Shown piece after piece: positions 4,362-62,483 of a stretch of 64,000 nucleotides of DNA. Below the pieces are notes generated by a model. That model saw only the letters and a program-made list of their open reading frames with translations. It was not told where the DNA came from and searched no databases. The translations under genes and the position numbers were made by a program. The stretch is from Benincasa hispida (Eukaryota; Streptophyta; Magnoliopsida; Cucurbitales; Cucurbitaceae). How positions within the stretch are numbered: position 1 is the stretch's first letter; every line of letters begins with the position of its first letter. The stretch spans positions 21,342,966-21,406,965 of the forward strand of contig NC_052357.1 of NCBI RefSeq assembly GCF_009727055.1, in the 5' to 3' direction.

Positions 4362-6277
4362 TGTTGGGAATGTCCTAAATCTCGCAGTTCGTAATCATGG
4401 AAACATATTCTATTTATCAATAAAAGTATTATTGAAGCAATTATTCAATAAAAGTGTTATTGAAATTGCATTATGTAATAAAAATCCAATAAACGAATCC
4501 ATGGCTATAGTATGAATACAGTAGCTTTATGTAGAGACATAAAAGAGGATCAAGTTATAGTATATGGCCAAAAAAGTCAATAAGTATATGGATGAGTTTG
4601 AGTATCTTGTTCTGAGGACACTATGGATGTGGTCTACTTTGTATGTTGATAAAAATGGCGTAATCCTAAAATCGTTCATATGGGGACATAAGAGTAGGGG
4701 CATCGTATGCAAAAGATTTTTTCATAAGACCGGACCACAAAATAGTCACTTTTTCTTTGTAACGACCATTTACTGTTAAAACTGACTTTTTTCAGTTTGA
4801 TGACCTAGGAAACTTGATCTTAATCCTGAGCTAACTATGAACTCTGGGATTAACCTTTAATTTGCATAGGTGAGAGTAGTTCAATAATACTACTCAACAA
4901 CCCTCCCATTTTAGGGATAAGACCAGATAGATAGTTGGGGACATAGTCCTGCAAGATAGAATTCTGTCCTACCCATTTTAGGTTTAGTAGACAGGTTGTT
5001 CCCTTAAGTACTGATTCCTGGTCTTGAACAAAGAGGTGCCACCTTCTCATGGTCGAGAAAGACATGGTTTATAACTTGGACTATAAACCAATTATTCAAT
5101 AGAAGATCAGTGAGAGCTTAAGGAGTAAGATGTATTTACAGGGCTAAAACGGTAATTTTGACCTAGTTGTAAATATGAAAGACCTGTAAAGGATCGACTT
5201 ACTGATTATGGTTAAATCAAGTGGATAGAAATATATCTACAGTGAGGAGAGTGCAACCATCGAGCTATAGTGGTATGTTTCGGTGGTTAGCGAATATTGA
5301 TTAATTCGGTTTAAAGAGTTTAGCCAGTTAATCTCAAATCGTTGAAGCTCATGACCTATAGGTCCATAAGATCCCTCTACTAGCTCGTAAAACATTACAT
5401 CTTAGATTAGAAAATTGAGTAAATTTGAAGTGTTCAAATTTGAAATTAGGATTTGAGTTTGAAATGTTCAAATTCAATTTAGGGTTTGGATAATTATATA
5501 TGATATAATTAAACGTTTTAATTTATTGAAATTAAACTTAAATTGGAGAGTTTAAAATATTTAAATATCTATTTAAATATAATTTACATGAATAGGGATT
5601 CATGCTTAATTTAGGTGTTTTGTTAATTTAATACTTGATATTAAATTATTATTTAATTAATTAATTAAAATGAAATTAATTTCAATTTTTTAAGAAATTC
5701 AATTTTTTGAAAATTGAACTTAAATTATATTTTATCCTCCACCCAAATTAAATATTAATAATTTTTTTTAAAAAAATGGATTTTTAAGTAGAATATCCAA
5801 CATTTTGATGTTGGTAGTGGAGTTTTCCACATTTTGACACCTTGCCTATTCACTTAATGTTAATTGAGGTGTCAATTGGCTGAATGTTTGAGTGCTTGCA
5901 TATTTAAACTTGATAAATATTTCATCTTTCAGAAGTTTGAGGGTCATGCAATCCAATTTTCTGAGATTTTTCAAGTAGAGAATATTTTGGCTTTCAAGCT
6001 CTCTAAATCCCTCTCAATTGAGAGTTTCCACCACTCAATCCAAGGCTGAGAATAGTAGAGAAGTTCCTCTTGGTGGTCTACTAGAAATTTGAAAATCAAT
6101 TTCGTAGAGTCCAGCTAGGACCAAGAGTGTTTCTACAAAGGTATACACATATGAAACCTTTTTTTTTTTTTTTTTTTATGAAAAACTGTTTTAAGCATGC
6201 TTTTGATCTCAAATTAAGTGTAATTAGAGTGCTTAATGATTCTATTTGCTTCCACTTTATGCGTGTTTATCCTATTA
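4362..6277 (+). mobile_element. Solo LTR C (inserted in B)
   Basis: Plus-strand LTR of the same broad family, starting TGTTGGGAATGTCC, about 1.92 kb, with no internal coding region. It is flanked by TATAA (4357-4361) and TACAA (6278-6282), a 5-bp target duplication with one mismatch. Joining B across it restores the 'ggagttataactctc' text seen in the uninterrupted LTR A at 8128-8145. It contains a long T run near 6161-6178. Its 3' terminus does not end in the usual CA, so that end is decayed. Open frames inside it (4564, 4850, 5864, 6127) are not genes. Confidence 0.75.
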
Positions 6278-30060: not shown

Positions 30061-30162
30061 GTTCCACATGAATGACCTACAGGCACATTAAAAATGTAGA
30101 AAAAAGAAGATGATTCTAAGCAATAGAAAGATAGTAAACTTAAGCATCAATATCTTACGATT

Positions 30163-30281
30163 ATCCATCAAATCTATCACAATAGACCACCCAACATGAA
30201 GGGCTATGGATCACTCGCAAATTATCCATCAAGTCTATCGCAATAGACCACCCAAAATAAAGGGCTATGGATCACACTAAG
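30163..30281. repeat. Two-copy tandem duplication, about 60 bp
   Basis: 'attatccatcaaatctatcacaatagacc..gggctatggatcac' is repeated immediately with a few changes (second copy from about 30223). It lies between the 3' LTR and the end of pol of element D. Confidence 0.7.
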
Positions 30282-30289
30282 GATTTGAG

Positions 30290-31871
30290 TCCCATACTAA
30301 TTGAAGACTCTAGGATTACTCTCCTTGTTAGGCCTTCGATGAGATGATCTGCTAAATTTCTCTCAGTATTACATACTCTATGGAGATAATTTCTTCCTTC
30401 AACAGTTGTTTCGCAGCTCTATATCTGACGAATATGCCTTCTTTTGCCATTATATATACTGTTATTGGCAATACCTATGACAGCCTGTGAATCACAATGC
30501 AAAGATATTGGTATAGAAGCTGTCTCTTATACACATCTAGATGTGTATAAGAGACAGGCTCTAATAGTGACAATTTTAGTCACAGGTGAATAAATATCAA
30601 AATCTGTCTCTTATACACATCTAGATGTGTATAAGAGACAGGCTCTAATAGTGACAATTTTAGTCACAGGTGAATAAATATCAAAATCTGTCTCTTATAC
30701 ACATCTAGATGTGTATAAGAGACAGGTTATTGGCAATACCTATGACAGCCTGTGAATCACAATGCAAAGATATTGGTATAGAAGTGCACCCCCCCCCCTC
30801 CCGGCATGTCTCGTGATAGACTTCTTAGCCAATCTACTTCTTGTCCAAGTAGTTCAAGTGCTATAAACTTTGATTCCATGATGGATCGTGCTATATAAGT
30901 TTGTTTAGCTGATTTCCATGAAATAGCTCATCCACTCGGTATAAATACGTATCCACTAGTGGAATTTACTTTGTTGTTATCTATTACCAAGTTTGCATCA
31001 CAATATCCTTCTAATACTACAGGAAAATTATTGAAATGTAGAAAAAAAAAATCTACTGTACATCTGAGATACCTTAGTAAACGACAAAGTGCTGTCCAAT
31101 GATCCTTATTAGGATTATGAGTGTATCTACTGAGTCTACTCACAACATATGCAATATCGGGCCTAGTATAGTTCACTAAAAACATAACATTGTCAATAAT
31201 TTTGCATATTCAGGCTAAGAGACACTTTCACCCTTATTCTTCTTAAGACTCATGCTAGGATCATAGGGTGTTCTTATAGGTGTAACATTAAAACTGTCAA
31301 ATCTCTTTAACAACTTTTCAATATAATGTAATTAACATAAAAAGAAACCATTTCCATTTTTTCTTATCTTAATACCAAGTATCATGTCAGCCTCACCTAA
31401 ATCTCTTATTTCAAATTGTGAGGATAAAAATAACTTTATTTCATTAATTATATCTATGTTTGTATCAAAGATAAACATATCGTCAACATACAAACAGATA
31501 ATTACATAGTCATCTCCAAATGACTTTGAGTAAATATAAGTACTTAAAACCATTGTTTACTAAATTATTGTTAAAATTTTCATACCATTATTTAGGAGCT
31601 TGTTTCATATCATAAAGAGATTTTGTAAGTTCACAAATCTTAATTTCTTGACCAGCAACAATAAAGCCTATAAGTTAGGCATATACATTTCCTCTTCCAA
31701 GTCCTTAGTAAGGTTATCTTCACATCCATTTGATGTATTAGAAGACCATGTATTGCATCATAGGCTATGAAAGCTCTAATAGTGACAATTTTAGTCACAG
31801 GTGAATAAATATCAAAATAGTCCATGCCTTGTTTTTCTATGTATCCCACAACACTAGTCTAGCCTTAAACT
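30290..31871 (-). pseudogene. Copia element D pol, C-terminal half (RT, RNase H)
   Basis: Minus-strand translation gives, from right to left on the plus strand: RT text GYIEKQGMDYFDIYSPVTKI and IHQMDVK (about 31849-31700); the RT catalytic motif in VIICLYVDDMFIFDT (about 31520-31470) followed by [37 protein letters not shown] (about 31175-31115); SGYVFIPSG (about 30950-30928); then RNase H text HCDSQAVIGIANNSIYNGKR (about 30500-30440) on to SERNLADHL-like sequence. Frameshifts and stops break it. It continues on the right of LTR E at 37917. The assembly artefact at 30520-30784 lies inside the RNase H part. Confidence 0.85.
30520..30784. other. Sequencing-library artefact: three Nextera mate-pair junction adapters
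   Basis: Three exact 38-bp copies of the Nextera mate-pair junction adapter lie at 30520-30557, 30604-30641 and 30688-30725. The adapter is two Tn5 mosaic ends, CTGTCTCTTATACACATCT and its complement, head to head. They are separated by two identical 46-bp spacers (30558-30603 and 30642-30687) that copy 31773-31818. The 59 bases before the first adapter (30461-30519) are repeated exactly after the last one (30726-30784). Removing 30520-30784 restores continuous copia RNase H coding. This is untrimmed adapter assembled into the contig, not a genomic feature. Confidence 0.98.
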
Positions 31872-49490: not shown

Positions 49491-51480
49491 TTTACCTCGG
49501 TATACCCTGGTGGCTTTTTCCATTCGAAAACATGACCAAATGGTTTTATTGACTCCATGTATGCTAGTACTAGACAATCAACACTATAAAATCTGTTGCA
49601 TAGAATAAACAGATTGATCTTGCGCTCTCTAACTTCTACAATAGCATGGAAATACTGAATCTCCAAACATTGAAATTGTATGCAACTACATTTCAAGTGT
49701 TAAGACTAACGATACCATCTAATCTACCGTCCTTGACATGGAATCTATAACAATTAGCTAGGCCAATTGGCAATACGGAATCTCCAAACACTGAAATTGT
49801 ATGTAACTACATTAGTATCGTCTAGCTTTGTCTCACTCTAAACCCATTATTTCCTCTATATTCTTTGAATGTGTCGATGTACTATTAGACCACATTGTTC
49901 ACTGCTCATGAAACCAACCTTAAAGTCTTATGTATTTTAGCAACGAAGTTATCAGCAACTCTCTTGCTTCTTTGGTAATAGCATTGAAGCACTCGACACT
50001 ATTGATGGTCATGTTATCATATCAGTTCCCAGATAGGTAACACCATGCCCATCGCTAAATATCAGCATCCTCCAAATATCTAGAAAGGGAATTGTTGTTG
50101 TAGTTCACTATTTGGACCCAATGGTGTTGAACTCAGATTCTCGATATGCTTTGCAAGTATCGTGAAACAATTGTCTAACGGACTCGTCCTTGAAGTATTT
50201 CTCCACGTTCCTTTTCTAATGGAAGGTATAAATTCCATGGTAAGAATTGAGGAATACAACATCAACGACATTAGCTATACTCTGTCTATGGTCTGAGTCG
50301 AATACGAGGTTAACGCATTCTTTAATTGTTGTTTTAAAGTTCGTCATGAGCCACTTCAAGGCTCGGTCATTCTCACTATCAACAATTGCATATGTCAATA
50401 GGCACAGTTGGTTATTATCGTTCATTGCAACACCAACTAGCATTGTTCTCTTGTATTTATCCTTTAAATAAGTATCATTTACAATGATCACGGGTCGACA
50501 ACTCTTAAAACCTCTTAAACTCGCACCTAGTGCCATGAACATGTATTGGAAATATTTTGATTCATCAAGCTCGATCTCAAATACAGTTCTAAGATTTTCT
50601 ATCTTCAAAGCTTCACCATATGCATGTAAAAGAGCATATGATTTCTCTGGCGTCCACCTTGCAAGAGTAAAAGCAGTTTCTCTTGCACGTCATGCCTTGT
50701 CATAACTAATATTGATTTGATTGATGTCACATATCCTCAATAATATGGTATGGTTTGCCCCAGACCAACGTCGAACTTGTTCTTGATTAAATGACCGATA
50801 ACAAATGTGCTAGCTTGCCTATGATCATGATTCAATACTTCAATCGAGTATGTGTGATTGGACGTGCATTTTGTGATCTTGAAAATATCACATCCGTCCA
50901 TTTTAATTGCTCGAATGGTCCACTTACAAGTTGGGTGTAAACACTGAACACTATACAGTTTTTTTTTTTTTTTTTTTAACCCGCAGCTCAAAGTTGTTCT
51001 TAATGGCCAACATTGCTAACATCATCTTCACATCATTCTTGTTGAAGAAAATTTGACCTACTTTAATGATATCCACTAACCCTATGGACGATTGTGGTTG
51101 CATGGTTAAGTCTTTCGTTCTGGCATTATTACTGGATGGTACATTTCACGGATTTTGGCGAGGTACACTCCTAACAAAATAGCCAAAATCATTTGACAGA
51201 ATCCGAGTTGGTTGTTTATTTATTCACAACAGAAGGACCATTCCCTAAAACAACTTGGGTTGGTTGTTCTTCATTCCTAGCTTCGTCCTCTTCTATCATC
51301 ATATTCTTATTTACACATGTCTCAACCTCTTCTATTGTCACATTCAGATGCAATACGTTTACTATATTAACATCGATGTTGTCGTTTCTCAATGATGTTG
51401 TCGTTTTCCAGTGAGACACCCAATGGACAAACATCATGCTTATTAACATCCGCTCCACACATGGGTTCGTCTTCTCTCTC
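49491..51480 (-). pseudogene. Mutator-like (MULE) transposase, degenerate
   Basis: Minus-strand translation in order: an acidic N-terminal part at 51458-51216 (IEEVETCVNKNM); a MuDR-type N-terminal zinc region at 50991-50737 (VQCLHPTCKWTIRAIK, then HTYSIEVLNHDHRQAS); the MULE catalytic domain at 50608-50216 (FMALGASLRGFKSCRPVIIV, NDTYLKDKYKRTMLVGVA, SENDRALKWLM, then FDSDHRQSIANVV and YHGIYTFH); and a SWIM-type zinc finger at 49696-49454 (CSCIQFQCLEIQYFHAI, then FYSVDCLVLAYMESIKP). The usual SWIM C..C..H order is kept in part. Frameshifts and a poly-K tract (T run at 50959-50978) break the frame. LTR J cuts its 3' side. Terminal inverted repeats were not located. Confidence 0.85.
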
Positions 51481-61551: not shown

Positions 61552-62483
61552 TGATGTGAATTGGAAGCTACACGATCATATGGTAGAAGAAATTGAAATA
61601 TAAAGGTACAGAATTTGGGTGGGAGTGGTCATTTTAGGTCTCCCCAATTTTAAGTTTTTCGTTAATTATTTATGCGTTTAGACTAATTGATCTTCCCCCT
61701 CACTAATCTTAAATTAATATTAGTAGCCCCATAAAAATTCGAAAAGTCCCAAAATTCGCTTAAATCAACTATAATTTTTAGTCGATTTGAGCTGAAACTG
61801 ATCGGTTTGACAGTTTCAACTTGCATTAGGAAAAAAAAACTGAAAATAAACTATTGAATTTAATTTGGTAAAAGAAAAAGATCGGATTATATAAGTTTCG
61901 ATAAAAATTTGTTTGGTTCAAGTTTGGTTTAGTATAACCACCAAATTGCATGTACCCTAATCAAATATAACAAGTTTAGTCTTCACTTTTTTGTGTCTAT
62001 TGAGAGGTTAATGTTTAAACTTATACAACCTCTAAACTTGAAATTAAGAGGGAGAGCATGTGTATGGGCGAGTGCACCAGGCAGTTAGCAAGTGATTTAG
62101 CTTCTACGGAACCATTTATTCATTATGAAAAGACGTGAAACAATAATAATAGACAAGTAAAAAATGGGGGGGGGGGAACAAAATTTATGGCATTTTGAAG
62201 TCAAAGTTAAATTAAAACAAGAAATTAGGACATTGGCTCCCCATAGGCTACAATGTCGCTACAAGCGAGGATTATCAAAATAATTGAATTAGCCTCCCAT
62301 ATATAACTCCTAATTTCAGGATTTTTTTTTACCCTTTGTGCACGCAATTTGTGATCTGATGTGAGATTATTTCGGTAATTTCCGTTGATGAAGACATTTA
62401 AGAAGCGGCGCAAAATTTTAAACTATTATTATTTATTTTGAGGCCACGTTGAAGCAATGGTGCGGCCGTGGAGGAATCAACTT

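Follow-up and report, generated by a model that had tools for sequence, protein, structure and literature searches.

Palindromic 38-bp inserts in the Benincasa hispida reference assembly point to Nextera mate-pair junction adapters from untrimmed reads

The mosaic end is a sequence derived from the ends of Tn5. Nextera mate-pair libraries are described as being made by tagmentation with a 19-bp biotinylated adaptor, two of which are joined when the tagmented fragment is circularised (PMC3928519). The long mate-pair junction adaptor that remains in such reads is the problem addressed by NextClip, and the locus presented here likewise involves 19-bp adaptors that circularisation would have brought head to head; it differs from the case described there (PMC3928519) in that the adaptor appears to have passed beyond the reads and entered a finished chromosome-scale assembly, where flanks are duplicated and spacers recur. 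A biotinylated ring adapter used for 4-kb mate pairs, which is ligated to mechanically sheared fragments, is printed with a 38-base sequence identical to that of our locus (PMC7357533). The third close system is the Tn5/IS50 transposon, whose target preference is shared by the DNA that flanks the present adapters. The Tn5 target has been described by the consensus GNTYWRANC, to which the authors of one study added a Nextera motif of their own finding, GTNYWRNAC (PMC8224930), and a G/C pair has been placed at the edges of the 9-bp core of the target (PMC8557372).

The window analysed here is a stretch of 64,000 nucleotides of Benincasa hispida, located in contig C9 of the assembly. A 38-bp sequence is present in it three times without mismatch, at 30520-30557, 30604-30641 and 30688-30725; it consists of a 19-mer and, directly after it, the reverse complement of that 19-mer, and so forms a perfect palindrome. 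The 19-mer, CTGTCTCTTATACACATCT, which we take to be the engineered mosaic end of Tn5, has six exact matches in the window, three on the plus strand (at 30520, 30604 and 30688) and three on the minus strand (at 30539, 30623 and 30707), and none was found with up to two mismatches in 100 dinucleotide-preserving shuffles of the window. Each 38-mer can therefore be read as a junction adapter of two Tn5 mosaic ends standing head to head. Between the three adapters lie two identical spacers of 46 bp (30558-30603 and 30642-30687), which reproduce on the plus strand their native source at 31773-31818, within the copia reverse-transcriptase stretch of the host element. Adapters and spacers are enclosed by a 59-bp direct repeat, whose first copy (30461-30519) runs on into native sequence on its left side and whose second copy (30726-30784) does so on its right side, the two being identical at 59/59 positions. 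The adapters, the spacers and the flank duplication had all been claimed in a sequence-only reading of this DNA, and exact search, a palindrome check and sequence comparison confirmed every one of their coordinates. The extra bases amount to 59 + 3x38 + 2x46 (59 + 114 + 92), that is 265, and sit inside a decayed Ty1/copia pol.

The host element is represented on the minus strand by two pieces of a Ty1/copia reverse transcriptase (Pfam RVT_2), one at 31335-31556 (E 2e-15, above the curated cut-off) and one at 31643-31858, which falls just below that cut-off (E 3.9e-7, 30.4 bits; cut-off 31.6). With this copia-type reverse transcriptase, the host of the insert is, judging by its sequence, a Ty1/copia retrotransposon. 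The reading toward the insert is presumably copia RNase H, to go by its sequence pattern; a Pfam search of the short RNase H pieces returned no RNase H match, the one hit being below threshold and to an unrelated family, and 0 matches were obtained when one piece was searched against PDB sequences. Removal of the 265 bases had been said to restore copia RNase H coding. The count is right, but the same copia copy is also broken outside the insert, since in-frame stops and a change of frame occur close to it; the element is thus decayed, and coding is restored only locally. In the window with the insert in place, an open reading is visible across 30461 and no open reading frame (ORF) of at least 120 aa overlaps the insert. 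Beside the retrotransposon piece, at 30160-30275, the window also carries a 55-bp unit in two tandem copies that are 93% alike and 61 bp apart, and a MULE transposase piece was found at 50216-50608 on the minus strand (Pfam PF10551, E 3.2e-11).

A run of ten C stands next to the artefact, at 30789-30798, and is enlarged relative to the C runs of the other copies with which it was aligned. Eleven loci of other copies entered this alignment, two of which (L163 and L164) are the same copy, leaving 10 distinct ones. A run of four to six C occupies the corresponding place in 8 of these 10 copies and is shorter in two (L159 and L165). The run had been regarded as low-quality gap fill; it is indeed there, but with a C run in 8/10 copies this reading is not established, and the greater length in the window may have arisen natively or through an error of the assembly. 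Apart from it, the window has a single run of at least nine C or G, the eleven G at 62166-62176.

Other copies of the element, free of the insert, served as a proxy for the true genomic sequence of the locus. A 701-base query (window 30300-31000) was compared with the assembly; since scoring was applied to 40 of 2,040 first-look candidates, the following counts cover a part of the family. Besides the query itself and its own inverted match, the scored candidates yielded 73 pieces of other element copies, which combine into 34 left-right flank pairs, each at one place, with 5 pieces unpaired. The insert was absent from all 34 copies that, among the scored candidates, retain both flanks. In 32 of these pairs the flanks overlap by 58-60 bases, that is by a single 59-mer with no insert, the overlap being extended by extrapolation as far as the insert edge wherever an alignment ended slightly early. 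The 59-mer is hence one genomic segment that the assembly displays twice. In the other two pairs, on contig C1243 and on contig C1 near 89.07 Mb, the alignments end well short on the right and the pieces adjoin; some sequence is therefore missing from these two copies, and the insert is likewise absent there.

The 38-mer is by no means confined to this element. Over the 912,946,352 bases (912.9 Mb) and 1,791 contigs of the assembly, the 19-mer has 10,766 exact matches on one strand and 10,764 on the other (21,530 in total), with 0 occurrences of the reversed pattern used as control. The exact 38-mer was counted 9,991 times, or on average once per 91 kb, again with 0 for the reversed-pattern control, and 10,978 times when up to three mismatches were allowed. 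Such numbers, together with the perfect palindrome and the direct flank repeats seen at some sites, are what a natural palindromic repeat, a MITE or a Tn5/IS50-like transposon family of the genome could produce. In an old repeat family, however, a broad spread of divergence would be expected, and here 91% of the copies within three mismatches (9,991/10,978) are exact. Moreover, the 38-mer is that of a published library adapter (PMC7357533) and is found in unrelated prokaryote assemblies. Unlike Tn5/IS50, the insert has no ORF of at least 120 aa, its copies have diverged little, and it lacks the 9-bp target duplication: an exact 9-bp flank duplication was seen at 0 of the 41 sites described below (the duplication measures 59 bp in the window and 10 bp at locus L146), which speaks against transposition into the genome. 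On the uniformity of the copies, the missing 9-bp duplication, the identity with an adapter and the lack of an ORF, a real transposon was rejected, and a natural repeat of any of these kinds retains next to no probability.

Read-through of an ordinary Nextera adapter, not of the mate-pair type, would bring in the same 19-bp mosaic end. The mosaic ends of the assembly are on the contrary mostly arranged head to head, since the 9,991 full junctions take up 19,982 of the 21,530 exact ones. The assembly contains 0 copies of the Nextera read-2 tail attached to the mosaic end and 0 of a 25-base TruSeq adapter string, and neither Nextera tail nor the TruSeq core is present in the 284,959 bases formed by the window and 40 fetched loci. 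Four mosaic ends are unpaired in these bases; three belong to junctions that differ at one or two outer bases, and the fourth (L148) is a single mosaic end. Ordinary read-through is accordingly given a negligible chance. The lack of the TruSeq string and of the Nextera tail would fit a screening step that removed standard adapters but let the junction adapter through.

The DNA next to the mosaic ends bears on the way in which they were attached. Forty of the 45 sites listed in the first 5.9 Mb of contig C1 were fetched (the five left out being four with only one exact mosaic end each and a junction lying near another one), which gave, with the window, 41 sites and 49 full junctions. Reading outward from every mosaic end of these sites provided 102 flanks, of which 95 are distinct. 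They match GNTYWRANC at a mean of 3.87 of the 7 specified positions, compared with 2.57 (sd 0.121, highest 2.81) for the same flanks read 20-109 bases away, corresponding to a z of 10.8. The first flank base is G in 43/95, for a control frequency of 0.206. Without the window, the match remains at 3.82 versus 2.57 (z 10.0, 91 flanks). The motif GTNYWRNAC, tried after the base table had been seen, fits slightly better (4.11 versus 2.57, z 11.9). Such a target preference separates Tn5 mate pairs from a ring adapter put on sheared DNA. A mate-pair library built by ligating a ring adapter to mechanically sheared DNA, without Tn5 tagmentation, would carry exactly the 38-mer described for that adapter (PMC7357533); as a Tn5 preference at 41 sites is not expected from shearing, this origin is considered very unlikely.

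The inserts are thus almost certainly Nextera mate-pair junction adapters, brought into the assembly by untrimmed mate-pair reads. This interpretation, already offered in the sequence-only reading, gains support from the genome-wide excess of the 38-mer over its reversed pattern (0), the low divergence of its copies, the Tn5 target preference, the insert-free relatives and the zero counts of the two ordinary adapter strings searched genome-wide (the TruSeq string and the Nextera read-2 tail). The feature is a laboratory and software artefact, not biology.

The junctions are often accompanied by repeated sequence. At 14 of the 41 sites (the window and 13 of the 40 others), 16-213 bp of the sequence preceding a junction recur immediately behind it, as was the case for 3 of 498 control points. 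Four further loci (L140, L146, L147 and L184) present a duplication whose length or position placed it outside the rule, and the remaining sites have none by the adjoining-repeat test. Several duplications are inexact, such as that of L139 (92% over 213 bp), which favours two contig ends that were built separately. More than one full junction is present in 7 of the 41 clusters, with three in the window, four in L152 and two each in L170, L179, L180, L181 and L188. Those of L152, at 4722-5260, alternate with identical 129-bp units with a period of 167 and make up an artificial tandem array.

These features could be accounted for as follows. In a library of this type, each end of a fragment cut from genomic DNA by Tn5 receives a 19-bp mosaic end, and circularisation of the fragment sets two mosaic ends head to head as a 38-bp palindrome. 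The likely cause of the inserts would then be the use of untrimmed mate-pair reads in contig extension or gap filling. Contig ends may have been extended by reads running into the adapter, and the extended ends joined at their common 38-bp palindrome and not at their true overlap, so that this overlap would remain in the sequence twice, as a flank repeat whose length varies (59 bp here). Neighbouring tagmented pieces might sometimes be left in between, like the 46-bp spacer, which would have been walked twice; the 59- and 46-bp pieces would both be separate tagmented fragments. Counted against this explanation are the 27 of 41 sites without a flank duplication by the rule, and the join mechanism is not extended to them.

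In the window, junction 3 (31818, adapter, 30461) alone has the order of one circularised fragment, which would measure about 1.1 kb without the insert. The order of junction 1 (30519 to 31773) and of junction 2 (31818 to 31773) is unlike that of a single circularised fragment, and these two would need either short tagmented pieces ligated together or a repeated walk of the assembly graph. In the former scenario, the 59- and 46-bp pieces would be short products of tagmentation within one neighbourhood, truly ligated as a concatemer and faithfully assembled. Each piece is indeed bounded by mosaic ends on both sides, and the distinct flanks of the window, of which there are only four, agree with the Tn5 consensus at 5.00 of 7 positions; identical pieces occurring twice would however be rare under random ligation, and the many inexact duplications elsewhere fit better with two separately built contig ends. 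We regard a concatemer formed in the tube as possible yet rather unlikely, and most of the remaining probability goes to a repeated graph walk.

Two other sources were considered and discarded. The k-mer length of the assembler, suggested by a second occurrence of 59 at L153, does not suit adjoining duplications that vary from 16 to 213 bp. Similarly, a single circularised fragment of several kilobases is no general cause, given the order of window junctions 1 and 2 and because, in 20 loci each about 10 kb long, copies of a flank lying kilobases away were found only at L142, where the copy is inverted, and at L146, where it lies on the same strand about 4 kb on. Both flanks are uninterrupted there, and these distant copies look like those of a related repeat copy.

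The importance of these observations is practical and not biological. Very probably, this chromosome-scale assembly holds about ten thousand unscreened junction adapters, each of them marking an adapter-mediated join, and about one third of the sampled sites also have a stretch of 16-213 bp falsely duplicated in tandem. With junction adapters at a mean spacing of 91 kb over 913 Mb, the reference has false insertions, false tandem duplications and broken reading frames along its length, and whoever catalogues its repeats, transposons, structural variants or genes would meet the adapters as a high-copy "palindromic repeat". If this is true, the adapters could conversely be used to map misassembly, false repeats, gene breaks and spurious peptides in the derived annotation. 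What is added here to the first observation is the scale, the Tn5 signature and the uninterrupted relatives. A search for papers on adapter contamination of public assemblies found none, and no paper listed by other literature searches reports the present contamination in its title or the opening lines of its abstract; we do not claim it to be unreported.

The same 38-mer is present in other public records. A megablast search located it in none of 20,395 E. coli records, in none of 50,697 phage records and in 5 of 72,556 plasmid records. Viral contigs, scanned for exact copies, had 7 such stretches, spread over 6 contigs. This spread over E. coli, phage, plasmid and viral records is the scattered pattern of contamination. 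Public prokaryote contigs contain at least 120 stretches with the 38-mer, from 19 named assemblies among the matches listed, and their 279 distinct flanks match the Tn5 consensus at 3.66 versus 2.57 (z 16.3). The plasmid records with the exact 38-mer are NZ_CP032357.1, NZ_MT039157.1, NZ_KY978628.1, NZ_MF589339.1 and NZ_MF918372.1, which hold it at 14 places in all, the palindrome being counted on both strands, with no annotated feature under the listed match. The junction adapter was also observed in records titled as chromosomes, namely CP051244.1 (L033), NZ_CP051236.1 (L123 and L128) and CP017948.1 (L109), one of them titled "complete sequence".
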